Source of the DNA: a candidate division TA06 bacterium SM23_40
GTDB taxonomy: Bacteria > LJUI01 > SM1-40
Length of the DNA stretch: 12,037 nucleotides
Reading direction: 5' to 3'
NCBI GenBank assembly: GCA_001303705.1
Contig: LJUI01000074.1
Span: forward strand, 1-12,037
Both the position numbers and the translations under genes were made by a program. Within the stretch, counting starts at the first letter, position 1; each line of letters starts with the position of its first letter. The notes under the pieces were generated by a model that did no database searches, was not told the DNA's origin, and saw only the letters and a program-made list of their open reading frames with translations. Shown here piece by piece: positions 7,682 through 12,037 of the stretch.

Positions 7682-7688
7682 TCACCGC
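7664..7688 (-). terminator. Possible 3'-end hairpin of the large secreted-protein gene
   Basis: GCGGTGA (7664-7670) and TCACCGC (7682-7688) form a perfect 7-bp stem with an 11-base loop. The right arm overlaps the TGA stop codon at 7682-7684. There is no T-run afterwards on the minus strand, so it is a weak terminator candidate or an mRNA 3'-end stabiliser. Confidence 0.35.
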
Positions 7689-10408
7689 AACAGCACGATC
7701 TTCCCCGATTCGCGGGCAGACTCACCGCCCCCCTCCACTGTGAGATAGACAAGATAGACACCGCTTGCGACAGCATCTCCTCGCTCGTTTTCCCCGCCCC
7801 ATCGGATGCAGTGACGACCTGCCGTGTCTGTGCGGTCGATCAGCCTCCGCACCTGCTGTCCCAGGAGATTGAATATCCGTATCTCAACACGAAGGGGGGC
7901 GCCCAGATCGTACACAATGCTCGAGGCTCCCTGACAGGGATTCGGATGGACGGACCATTCGATGAGATCGAGAGCCACCTCCCTATCTTCATCTCCCTCC
8001 TCCCCCACGGCCGTCGAGACGCCGAACCAGTCGAGTACTCTCGAAATCACCTCCCCTCTCGTGGCCTGAGCGGGCCCGTTCTTGCTGACCGCCTCGACGC
8101 CGAATGCGCAGTACACGACTCTCCCCCCGTCGTGATCTGTGCGCAGGGCCGAGGGAGCACCCGATGGATATCTGAAGACTACCCGAGCACCGTTTTCAGG
8201 ATGGATCTCGTCCGGGGACACCTGGTTGTCCGCGCCGTTCGCGCCGGCGATGGCCACGGTCAGCCCATCGCCGATCGTGTCACCTGGCTCGCCGTACATC
8301 CCACGCTCAGAGGAGACGGTATCGAACCCTGCACAGAGCCAGTCGTGGTAGAACGGCGTATCCCCGATGTCCTCTGCAATGAACTGTCCGCTCAGGAGGA
8401 GACGGCCTTCTCCGCCAAGGAACGTCCTGAGACTCTCCTGATCGGCCTCGGTGAGCGTCTCGTTCTCCTGGTCGCCGGTGAACCAGATGATCGTGGGCAC
8501 AGGGAGGAGCGTGGAGCAACTGATGGGGAAGGTTCCGTCCGTTGCGACGCACCAGATGCAGTGGCGAATGCCCAGTTGGTCGAGGGGCTCGATGTACAAG
8601 ATCTCGTATCCCTCGCCGCCGTCGTCATCGATGAGAACGACGTCGGCCGGCGAGACGAGGACCTCGAGCTGGGTAATCGAGTCGGGCGCGATGACGACAC
8701 CGTTGTACGCAGTCCCGGGATAGGGAGCGCCGGGCTGTACTTCTATATCGTACGTACCCGGCATGAGGTCGAGAGTGAATTCCCCGCTTGTCGAGTCTGA
8801 CCGGATCGAATCGGGAGGGGCACACCACCCGTCTCTCCTCGCCACGAGCAGGGCCGCGATCCCGCCTCCCGTCCTCTCATCGCGCACTCTGCCGGCAAGG
8901 GTGCCGAGTGCGTACTCGATCGGATACCCCCCGGCGAAGTAGATATCCGTGTCGAACGGGGCGACGGGGCGAGCATCCTCCCATACCACCATCGGACCGC
9001 AGTCCGTACCGAGCGTCAGGCTCGTATTTACCTGCAACGCGTCGATGCTGTCGACAAGCACCCCGGGGAGAAACGTCACTCCAGCGTCCGTCGAACGCGT
9101 GACGCAGATGTTCGAGAACGGACCCCGTTCTTCCCGCCACGCCACGACCGGGTGGTTCGCGGCGTCGAACGCGATCGAACCTCCGGTCCCCCACACGCGG
9201 TCTGTGCCGACGCACCGGCCCGGAGGAAATGTGGCGCCGCAATCTGTCGATCCGGCGAGATACGGGGACCGGGTGCGAGCATCAGTCCAGACGATGACGG
9301 GATTGCCCGTGCGATCGATCGCGACTCGGGGGCTGGATCGGTCCCCTGGCCCCGGATCTATTTCGCACGGATCGAGGAATGTCTGCCCGCCATCAGTGGA
9401 CCGCGCATAGACGAGACAGAATCGGGTGACCGGTGTCATGTGTTGCTGTGTCCATGCGACGTGCGGGTTGCCCTCAGTATCGCTGGCAATCGACGGCATA
9501 CAGTCGATGAGGACCGGATCCCCTATCCCGACAGGCATGAGGAAATTCTCGCCTCTGTCGGTCGAACGGCTCACATAGATGTCGGCACCGTCGTGCCAGA
9601 CGACGAACGGATTGCCGCTCGGATCGAGGGCGATGTCCGGGCTCCGCTGGACCGCATCGCGCGGCGGGATGAAGACTCCAGGCAGGAACGAGATACCGCC
9701 ATCGGTGGAGCGAACATATCGGACGCGATCGCCGTCGCGATCAAAGGCATAGACAATGTGGACGTTGTCCTCATCATCTATGGCCATCCGTGGGGCGCAG
9801 ACCGTATTGGACGAGTCGACCCAGGTACTCACCGGGAACGTGAGCCCGCCGTCGGTGGAACGTGTGAATCTGATTCCTACGCTATATCTATCTCGCGAGC
9901 GTACGCGGTCCGGAATAAGGGACGATCCCCTCAATAGGGCGCCTTCTTCCCCCTCAAGAGGAGAAGACTCTCTCATTGCCGCGACATTGCCCGCCGCAGA
10001 ACCGATCTCTCCCACGAAATCATAGACTAGACAGGGATTCCCCTGTGAGTCGACCGCCACGGAGGGTGCCGACTGCGCCGCTGGATCGGGATCAATGACC
10101 ACCGGAGGATAGAAGAGAAACTGCGCCGCCCCTCTGTTTGTGCCCGAGCAGATCACCGTCATGACAGTGAGAGGGAGTATCGCCGCCAGGCGCCGCACCC
10201 CGACGGGTCGCCATCCAATGAGCGTGCTGCCGATCGCTTTCCCCATTGTCTTCCGCGCTTTCCCCGTCGTTTTTGCCCCCGCTTTCCCTGTTGTCTTCCG
10301 CGTCGACTTTCCCTTCGTTTTCCCGATCATCCTACCAGTGGCTTTCCCCGTCGTTTTGCGGATCGCTCTCCCCTCCCGACCCTCATCGCCCTCGCTGTTG
10401 CCGTGCAT
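7682..10408 (-). CDS. Large secreted multidomain protein: Asp-box repeats, carboxypeptidase-regulatory-like domain, C-terminal sorting tail
   Basis: From ATG 10408 the product is 908 residues. Order: a basic K-T-T-G-K-A repeat (17-60); a signal-peptide core, A-A-I-L-P-L-T-V-M-T-V-I-C (75-87), with a likely cut near A-A-Q (about 96); six Asp-boxes of the form S-T-D-x-G-x-x-F (about 184, 234, 282, 337, 387, 439), suggesting a sialidase-type propeller; a carboxypeptidase-regulatory-like beta sandwich (about 500-575); a V-V-L-I-D-D-D-G-G module ending F-G-V-E-A-V and V-L-D-W-F (590-795); then a tail starting V-H-P-N-P and ending K-I-V-L-L-R, like FlgD/type IX sorting domains. It is probably exported and retained at or released from the surface. 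Start is uncertain: ATG 10408 (GGGGA five bases upstream), ATG 10426 (GGAGGGGAG twelve upstream) or ATG 10246, which would give a normal-length leader. Confidence 0.88.
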   Translation of the reverse strand: MHGNSEGDEGREGRAIRKTTGKATGRMIGKTKGKSTRKTTGKAGAKTTGKARKTMGKAIGSTLIGWRPVGVRRLAAILPLTVMTVICSGTNRGAAQFLFYPPVVIDPDPAAQSAPSVAVDSQGNPCLVYDFVGEIGSAAGNVAAMRESSPLEGEEGALLRGSSLIPDRVRSRDRYSVGIRFTRSTDGGLTFPVSTWVDSSNTVCAPRMAIDDEDNVHIVYAFDRDGDRVRYVRSTDGGISFLPGVFIPPRDAVQRSPDIALDPSGNPFVVWHDGADIYVSRSTDRGENFLMPVGIGDPVLIDCMPSIASDTEGNPHVAWTQQHMTPVTRFCLVYARSTDGGQTFLDPCEIDPGPGDRSSPRVAIDRTGNPVIVWTDARTRSPYLAGSTDCGATFPPGRCVGTDRVWGTGGSIAFDAANHPVVAWREERGPFSNICVTRSTDAGVTFLPGVLVDSIDALQVNTSLTLGTDCGPMVVWEDARPVAPFDTDIYFAGGYPIEYALGTLAGRVRDERTGGGIAALLVARRDGWCAPPDSIRSDSTSGEFTLDLMPGTYDIEVQPGAPYPGTAYNGVVIAPDSITQLEVLVSPADVVLIDDDGGEGYEILYIEPLDQLGIRHCIWCVATDGTFPISCSTLLPVPTIIWFTGDQENETLTEADQESLRTFLGGEGRLLLSGQFIAEDIGDTPFYHDWLCAGFDTVSSERGMYGEPGDTIGDGLTVAIAGANGADNQVSPDEIHPENGARVVFRYPSGAPSALRTDHDGGRVVYCAFGVEAVSKNGPAQATRGEVISRVLDWFGVSTAVGEEGDEDREVALDLIEWSVHPNPCQGASSIVYDLGAPLRVEIRIFNLLGQQVRRLIDRTDTAGRHCIRWGGENERGDAVASGVYLVYLTVEGGGESARESGKIVLLR
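10232..10360 (-). repeat. Degenerate 12/21/24-bp tandem repeat coding K-T-T-G-K-A units
   Basis: On the minus strand the motif ACGACGGGGAAAGCG and variants (ACAACAGGGAAAGCG, ACAATGGGGAAAGCG) recur about six times at 12, 21 or 24 base steps. Translated in the frame of the secreted protein it gives R-K-T-T-G-K-A, S-T-R-K-T-T-G-K-A, G-A-K-T-T-G-K-A and R-K-T-M-G-K-A. The array lies immediately before the signal-peptide core, so it is either an unusually long basic leader or part of the 5' untranslated RNA if translation starts at 10246. Confidence 0.8.
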
Positions 10409-10522
10409 CTCGTTCCCCGTGGTCATCGTTTCGAACGGCTCCCCTCCGTCACCACCCAGTCCGGTCCCGCTCAGTCTGCGGCCTGATTCCACGGCACCGC
10501 GGGCGGACCACCCTTACCCTGG

Positions 10523-10537
10523 GCAAGAAGCGTGCCA
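10523..10537 (-). promoter_or_regulatory. Sigma-54 (-24/-12) promoter
   Basis: The minus strand reads CTGGCACG-CTTC-TTGCC, with TGGCAC at 10537-10532 and TTGC at 10526-10523. The GG and GC dinucleotides are separated by exactly ten bases, the strict RpoN spacing, and the match to TGGCAC-N5-TTGC is complete. It predicts transcription from about 10511 toward the large secreted-protein gene. A complete match in the intergenic region, in the right orientation, is unlikely by chance. Confidence 0.65.
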
Positions 10538-10728
10538 GCGCGAACGGCTTCAACGGAGATGCTGCCTGCACGAATCAAGTCCGTTTGCGAAATGGCGTTA
10601 GGAACGCGGAGTCGAAGAAAGCGAGGAGTTGATCGCCATGCCTCTCGGACTCTGAACGACAAGGGGATGTGCCCGCACATGCCTTCGCCCGCCGAACTCG
10701 ATGCGCGCGAGCACGTTGGAGCAGTGCA

Positions 10729-10756
10729 AAGCTCGTTTGCCTGTGCAAACGAGCTT
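10729..10756. promoter_or_regulatory. Perfect 12-bp-arm palindrome, probable regulator binding site
   Basis: AAGCTCGTTTGC (10729-10740), spacer CTGT, GCAAACGAGCTT (10745-10756). The arms are perfectly complementary. It lies about 220-245 bases upstream of the start predicted from the sigma-54 promoter, where an upstream activating sequence for an enhancer-binding protein would be expected. It could instead be a hairpin ending minus-strand glycosyltransferase transcripts, but only three T residues follow the stem. Confidence 0.65.
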
Positions 10757-10889
10757 GACATTGTGACGTGTCTAGTATGTTGACAGCAGGATCAGTTGGG
10801 CAAACAAGGGTGCACAGGCGGGAATGCCAGGGGGGTGCAAGAAACCTGGTGACTCGCTCACGTAGTGGCCCGTCTACCTGGTGGCCCCC

Positions 10890-11582
10890 CTAATACATCC
10901 TGAAGCAGAGCCGGGCGAGCTCGCGGAGCGCGCGGAGGATGACGCTCGGCTTATCCCCGCTCTGCTCACCGCACTTCCTCGGCCGGTGGCCCACGGGGAG
11001 CTCGATGAGGCTCACCCCGCGGCGCATCAGCCTGGCGAGGAGCTCACCGTTAATGAGCGCGCCCGTTGCGGAGAGATCGATCTCCCGCAGTCTCTCGCTC
11101 CGAAAGAGCTTGAATGCGCAGTTGAGATCTCGCACGCGCACGCCGAGACAGCAGCTCACCAACAGCCCCCATCCCCGCGCGAGCAGGTACCGGTGCGGCC
11201 GATCCTCGCGTTTCGCACGGTACCCGATCACGGCCTCGTACGTGGGGGCATAGCTCATGAACCGCTCCAGTTCCCCGAGCTCGAATTGGTCGTCCGCATC
11301 GGTGAAGAACGCCAGGTCCATACGGCAGTTGGATAGGCCTGTCCAGACTGCGGCGCCGTACCCGCGGTTAGTGGGGTGCTGAACAAGCCGGACCTCGGGG
11401 TGCTGGCCGGCGAGGCGCCCGACGATGTCAGCGGTAGCGTCCGAACTCCCATCGTCGACGACGATCACCTCGTACTGATCGGCGACCCGCGACAGGACGC
11501 CGAGCGCATCGCGCACTACGCGCTCTATGTTCCCCTCCTCGTTATGTGCAGGAAGGGCGATCGATACTGACTGTTTGCTCAC
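10890..11582 (-). CDS. GT2-family glycosyltransferase, polyprenol-phosphate sugar synthase type
   Basis: The 230-residue protein is a GT-A fold glycosyltransferase of the dolichyl/undecaprenyl-phosphate mannose synthase type. Markers in order: S-I-A-L-P-A-H-N-E-E-G-N-I (7-19), nucleotide-binding V-V-D-D-G-S-S-D (41-48), N-R-G-Y-G-A-A (72-78), catalytic-metal T-D-A-D-D-Q (94-99) and D-L-N-C-A-F-K-L-F (152-160), the family's 'D-x-x-x-G-F-K' segment. It lacks C-terminal membrane helices, so it is a soluble or peripheral enzyme of usual length, probably loading a sugar from a nucleotide donor onto a lipid phosphate for envelope glycans. GTG 11582 is preferred because GGAG lies eight bases upstream; GTG 11591 overlaps that site. 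It overlaps the upstream oxidoreductase gene by about 40 bases, which suggests translational coupling. Confidence 0.88.
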   Translation of the reverse strand: MSKQSVSIALPAHNEEGNIERVVRDALGVLSRVADQYEVIVVDDGSSDATADIVGRLAGQHPEVRLVQHPTNRGYGAAVWTGLSNCRMDLAFFTDADDQFELGELERFMSYAPTYEAVIGYRAKREDRPHRYLLARGWGLLVSCCLGVRVRDLNCAFKLFRSERLREIDLSATGALINGELLARLMRRGVSLIELPVGHRPRKCGEQSGDKPSVILRALRELARLCFRMY

Positions 11583-12037
11583 GAAGATCACTCCGCTCTC
11601 GTGAATCTATGCTGAGATCTCTCGCGATGGCCTCGGCACACTCATATCCGGCCCTGAGCGAGGCGCAGAGGCTCCGCTCGGGGTAACTGGGCGGGCTCGC
11701 CATCCCCGCCGCGTACAGCCCCCGAATCATCGTCCGGTAGGGAACGATCGAGTGTGCGGCGTACCCCACGACATAGTGGGGGGAAGAATGCTCGGTGCGC
11801 GCCAGGTGCCAGAAGACGATATCAGAACGCTTCAGACGAGGCACCATCCTCCCGAGCCCATCGATGAATGTCTCCGCAACTTCTCCGTCGCCCATATCCG
11901 CGATATCGGTGCCATCTGGAGGACCAATATCTCCAGCACTGCCGGGCTGAACACCACTATGCCGAGTACTGCCATCTCGAATACCACTGCTCCGAACACC
12001 AGCATCTCGAGCACTACCATCCCGAGCACTACTGTCC
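11542..12037 (-). CDS. FAD-dependent amine-oxidase-like oxidoreductase, C-terminal part
   Basis: The frame is open from the TAA at 11542 to the right edge, so the N-terminal FAD-binding part is outside the window. The visible C-terminus has W-H-L-A-R-T-E-H-S-S-P-H-Y-V-V-G-Y, then I-R-G-L-Y-A-A-G-M-A-S (the strand and glycine turn contacting FAD) and S-L-R-A-G-Y-E-C-A-E-A-I-A-R-D-L, the final helix. This is the usual ending of flavin amine oxidase / protoporphyrinogen-oxidase-like / UDP-galactopyranose-mutase-like proteins. Upstream of D-G-E-V-A-E-T-F-I-D-G-L the frame runs through a pentapeptide repeat rich in S, G, R and D, which looks like a surface-loop insertion. Being directly upstream of and overlapping a lipid-linked-sugar glycosyltransferase, it may serve glycan or isoprenoid-lipid metabolism (inference). 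Confidence 0.72.
   Translation of the reverse strand, partial: DSSARDGSARDAGVRSSGIRDGSTRHSGVQPGSAGDIGPPDGTDIADMGDGEVAETFIDGLGRMVPRLKRSDIVFWHLARTEHSSPHYVVGYAAHSIVPYRTMIRGLYAAGMASPPSYPERSLCASLRAGYECAEAIARDLSIDSRERSDLREQTVSIDRPSCT
11911..12037 (-). repeat. 15-bp tandem repeat inside the oxidoreductase gene, at least eight units
   Basis: On the minus strand, units such as AGTGCTCGGGATGGT, AGTGCTCGAGATGCT and GGTATTCGAGATGGC follow each other every 15 bp and run off the right edge. In the oxidoreductase frame they code S-A-R-D-G, S-A-R-D-A, G-V-R-S-S, G-I-R-D-G, S-T-R-H-S, G-V-Q-P-G, S-A-G-D-I and G-P-P-D-G. The units become less alike toward the 3' side of the gene, so the array probably grows at its 5' side. 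The alternative frame gives a valine-rich hydrophobic peptide but does not join the enzyme. Confidence 0.85.

Follow-up and report, generated by a model that had tools for sequence, protein, structure and literature searches.

What controls the gene for the large secreted protein with six Asp boxes on this contig? An earlier note on this DNA had placed a sigma-54 promoter before the gene and had read a distant palindrome as the operator of the promoter's activator. The window analysed here (12,037 nucleotides) is an entire contig, C20, of a candidate division TA06 bacterium genome of 2.88 Mb in 189 contigs, with a completeness of about 90%. Stretches amounting to 1.4 Mb of this genome were sampled and their genes called with a home-made Markov caller. 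The sample deliberately takes in contigs with motif matches or activator genes, and because of this bias we judged motif enrichment by whole-genome counts. The features discussed below are collected in Table 1.

Table 1. Positions of the gene, its neighbour and the candidate control elements in the window, with the sigma-54 sites elsewhere in the genome that carry a dyad.
Feature	Position	Strand	Remarks
Secreted six-Asp-box protein gene, FlgD_ig-like C-terminal tail	7682..10492	minus	start codon uncertain
Sigma-54 (-24/-12) element TGGCACGCTTCTTGC	10523..10537	minus	exact TGGCAC-N5-TTGC; predicted start near 10511
CGTTTGC, single copy of the palindrome half-site	10582..10588	plus	real
Imperfect dyad GGnATGTGC-N2-GCACATnCC	10664..10683		centred 136 bp upstream of TGGCAC
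28-bp palindrome AAGCTCGTTTGC-CTGT-GCAAACGAGCTT	10729..10756		arms 12, spacer 4; 3'-end hairpin of upstream gene or activator operator
Glycosyltransferase (GT2) gene	10890..11591	minus	upstream, co-directional; stop codon 133 bp from palindrome
Dyad-bearing sigma-54 sites, other contigs	L031 13334 and 16942 (C4); L099 5297 (C88); L114 1230 (C163); L068 6581 (C42); L087 4535 (C61)

The promoter motif, with its GG and GC ten bases apart, was recovered exactly where the earlier note had read it. When up to two mismatches were allowed, the window held nine matches against 8.64 expected from shuffled sequence, so only the exactness of this site is unusual. Genome-wide there are 24 exact matches, compared with three occurrences of the reversed control. 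Varying the spacer from 1 to 13 gave 24 matches at a spacing of 5 and 35 at the 12 other spacings together (mean 2.9). All 24 exact matches lie in the sampled sequence, where 18 are intergenic even though intergenic DNA makes up 14% of it; about one chance intergenic match per genome is expected from the spacing controls. We conclude from the enrichment at spacing 5 and the intergenic bias that the motif is genuine here. Genes downstream of the other sites encode type IV pilin-like proteins, exported proteins and response regulators, or directly follow activator genes; the first and last of these groups are known kinds of sigma-54 targets.

The genome also encodes the machinery that such promoters use. 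A single, intact rpoN carries the RpoN box ARRTVAKYR, and 18 full-length Sigma54_activat domains were found, nine activators in the sampled sequence matching a joint GAFTGA-like and Walker-A pattern. No activator gene was detected on contig C20. The rpoN and activator genes that the earlier note had named as support for its promoter are thus present, and together with the genome-wide enrichment of the exact motif upstream of genes they support its promoter claim.

How good is the window site as a promoter? A leave-one-out matrix built from 21 intergenic TGGCA[CT] sites gave it a core score of 22.1, among the best, and a flank score of -4.6, the worst of the 21. The base after TTGC is C here and T in 15 of those 21 sites, and the 25 bp downstream contain 24% A+T, the lowest value among 24 sites. 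A T or A after TTGC and an A+T-rich start region, as at the other sites of this genome, are a preference and not a defining requirement. Because of the C and the most GC-rich start region of the set, we rank the site among the weaker sigma-54 sites of the genome. These same features, with the low flank score, speak for a rival reading in which the match arose by chance and the gene is transcribed from another type of promoter or by read-through, as does the one or so chance intergenic occurrence predicted per genome. Against this stand the 18 intergenic exact occurrences where about one is expected, the correct orientation of the site, co-directional with the Asp-box gene and 30–96 bp before plausible start codons, and a search of 10200–10900 in which no sigma-70-like site was found. 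On balance a chance match appears improbable, and the site is likely to be a real sigma-54 promoter of the Asp-box gene.

The gene itself is largely as described in the earlier note. Its six Asp boxes are real; of the sorting tail, a FlgD_ig match is indeed present, but it falls below threshold: the genome search, where the cut-off is 27, scored it at 25.4 bits and another search at 21.2 bits. Candidate start codons are GTG 10492, ATG 10426, ATG 10408 and ATG 10246, all downstream of the predicted transcription start, and the reading frame is weakly coding in appearance back to 10492. An unusual N-terminal run of Lys/Gly/Thr-rich imperfect in-frame repeats (RKTTGKATGRMIGKTKGKSTRKTTGKAGAKTTGKARKTMGKAIGS) occupies 10235–10400, ahead of a signal-peptide-like stretch, and makes the choice of start uncertain. 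When the big Asp-box protein was searched against the genome contigs no relative was found, and the same search with the glycosyltransferase returned distant homologues only. At the contig end (11900–12037), short degenerate tandem repeats with units like GAGCACTACCATCCC form, in frame, a hydrophobic repeat that starts an open frame matching no Pfam family.

We then ask what the palindrome between the two genes may be. Its two perfect 12-nt arms were confirmed, 218–245 nt upstream of the predicted start, as was the CGTTTGC copy nearer the promoter, whose surrounding 12-mer (10577–10588) matches a palindrome arm at 10 of 12 positions. This recurrence is only mildly unusual, since an equally good half-site copy lies within 300 nt of two others among 35 long intergenic palindromes. 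In the assembly, which is about 10% incomplete, the palindrome is single-copy at up to three mismatches, and it was not found again at another promoter or at an activator gene. Its core, GTTTGC-N4-GCAAAC, occurs at up to one mismatch in seven places against four for the control, near the control level. An Rfam search of the window gave no match, and a DNA search of the intergenic region over 59 genomes, in which the nearest relative is no closer than domain level, returned the window itself as its sole match.

Dyads at the other sigma-54 promoters provide a second standard. Of 24 sigma-54 sites, six carry a perfect dyad with 7-nt arms centred 114–128 bp upstream of TGGCAC; in 2000 random samples of intergenic sequences, no 14-bp bin reached that number. 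The dyad GGTGCGG-N8-CCGCACC is common to both promoters on C4, beside an activator gene; the one on C88, TGCGAC-N7-GTCGCA, recurs near a C124 site. Judged by position and sequence, these dyads are likely to be activator binding sites of the lineage. On C42 the element is a 28-bp perfect palindrome without a spacer (CGGCCTGCGGTATCGATACCGCAGGCCG, L068 6581–6608); the near-consensus sigma-54 site 122 bp downstream of it precedes the gene for an 882-aa exported protein. The palindrome in the window is centred 205 bp upstream of TGGCAC, outside this zone. The imperfect dyad of Table 1 lies nearer to the zone and might, weakly, be proposed as an alternative activator site; its core ATGTGC-N2-GCACAT (10667–10680) is unique in the genome, so that its support from recurrence is no greater than the palindrome's.

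Long inverted repeats elsewhere in the genome offer another comparison. Perfect repeats whose arms reach 11 nt or more number seven in 8.8 kb of convergent spacers, 17 in 144 kb of co-directional spacers and two in 26 kb of divergent spacers, and are thus about ten times denser between convergent than between divergent genes; 17 of 24 intergenic ones have a stop codon no more than 150 bp away. The long intergenic inverted repeats of this genome therefore behave mostly as gene ends. The palindrome fits this population. On the transcribed strand shortly after the glycosyltransferase stop codon, it folds into a stable hairpin (-22.6 kcal/mol, z -4.8), as an intrinsic terminator would. Its arms are only 50% G+C and no U-run follows the stem; U-runs are weak after most gene-end hairpins here too. 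We lean slightly towards a 3' hairpin of the glycosyltransferase transcript over an operator, a reading to which we give about an even chance of being correct.

The rival reading takes the palindrome as an upstream activating sequence for a sigma-54 activator dedicated to the Asp-box gene, acting by DNA looping over about 205 bp. The perfect 12-nt arms, which put 16 bp between the centres of the half-sites, are what such a site would offer, and the 10-of-12 copy nearby is a mild hint of protein binding. The C42 promoter demonstrates that long palindromes can accompany sigma-54 promoters in this genome, and the distance has precedent in Desulfovibrio vulgaris, where the activator site lies more than 300 bp away for four promoters (PMC4641369). 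These points are countered by the single-copy state of the palindrome and the near-control frequency of its core, by its position outside the zone used at the other promoters, and by its resemblance to the gene-end hairpins, so that the operator function proposed in the earlier note did not find support. We consider an operator of some kind plausible and less probable than the hairpin, and a dedicated looping activator at this site rather unlikely. More doubtful still is the full claim that a dedicated, undescribed activator binds AAGCTCGTTTGC-N4-GCAAACGAGCTT and the flanking half-site and thereby switches a single Asp-box sorting-tail protein. That the palindrome is something else altogether seems quite improbable.

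The earlier note had further suggested that a sigma-54 activator switches the production of surface or secreted proteins in this lineage, and had named as support a promoter and palindrome common to the upstream regions of other sorting-tail genes. Across the genome 68 C-terminal tails are FlgD_ig-like; large exported proteins carry many of them, and several are clustered (C13, C42, C84 and C143). Of 35 sampled sorting-tail genes, the one in the window alone has a sigma-54 site, exact or near-exact, in the 600 bp before it, which contradicts a general switch; neither element is common to the others, the palindrome being single-copy. We therefore rejected a sigma-54 regulon common to sorting-tail genes. 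This test does not place the sorting-tail proteins under sigma-54 as a class, and the Asp-box gene is a single case.

Our preferred explanation is an ordinary sigma-54 promoter for the Asp-box gene, served by an activator whose gene lies at another place in the genome. Sigma-54 RNA polymerase would wait at the site for an upstream-bound activator to melt the DNA, with transcription starting near the predicted point, and the palindrome would, slightly more probably than serving as an operator, form the 3'-end hairpin of the glycosyltransferase RNA. Taken whole, hairpin included, this account stands in our judgement evenly poised between right and wrong. The single finding is modest and fairly ordinary: a standard sigma-54 promoter, probably, before a large secreted protein of an uncultured bacterium. 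Its wider value lies in showing canonical sigma-54 promoters in use in a little-known lineage, with pilin and exported-protein genes among their targets, and in about 20 intergenic sites plus positioned dyads that form a basis for working out its activator regulons.

Sigma-54 is already known as a frequent regulator of the bacterial exterior, mainly of polysaccharide, flagella and wall synthesis (Francke et al. 2011, PMC3162934). The present case resembles that pattern in its exported target and in the pilin and exported-protein genes that follow other sites here. It departs from it in that the sorting-tail Asp-box protein would be one more exported target, whereas the other sampled sorting-tail genes of this genome are without such sites. 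Like established promoters dependent on sigma-54 and enhancer-binding proteins, the window site has the exact TGGCAC-N5-TTGC with its GG-to-GC spacing, is intergenic and co-directional with its gene, and belongs to a genome with rpoN and activators; unlike them, it has C in place of T or A after TTGC, a GC-rich start region, no adjoining activator gene and an activator site that is only putative. The palindrome, for its part, shares with the intrinsic-terminator-like hairpins at gene ends of this genome a long perfect stem, a 4-nt loop and a place 133 bp after a stop codon, and differs from them in its missing U-run and lower stem G+C.
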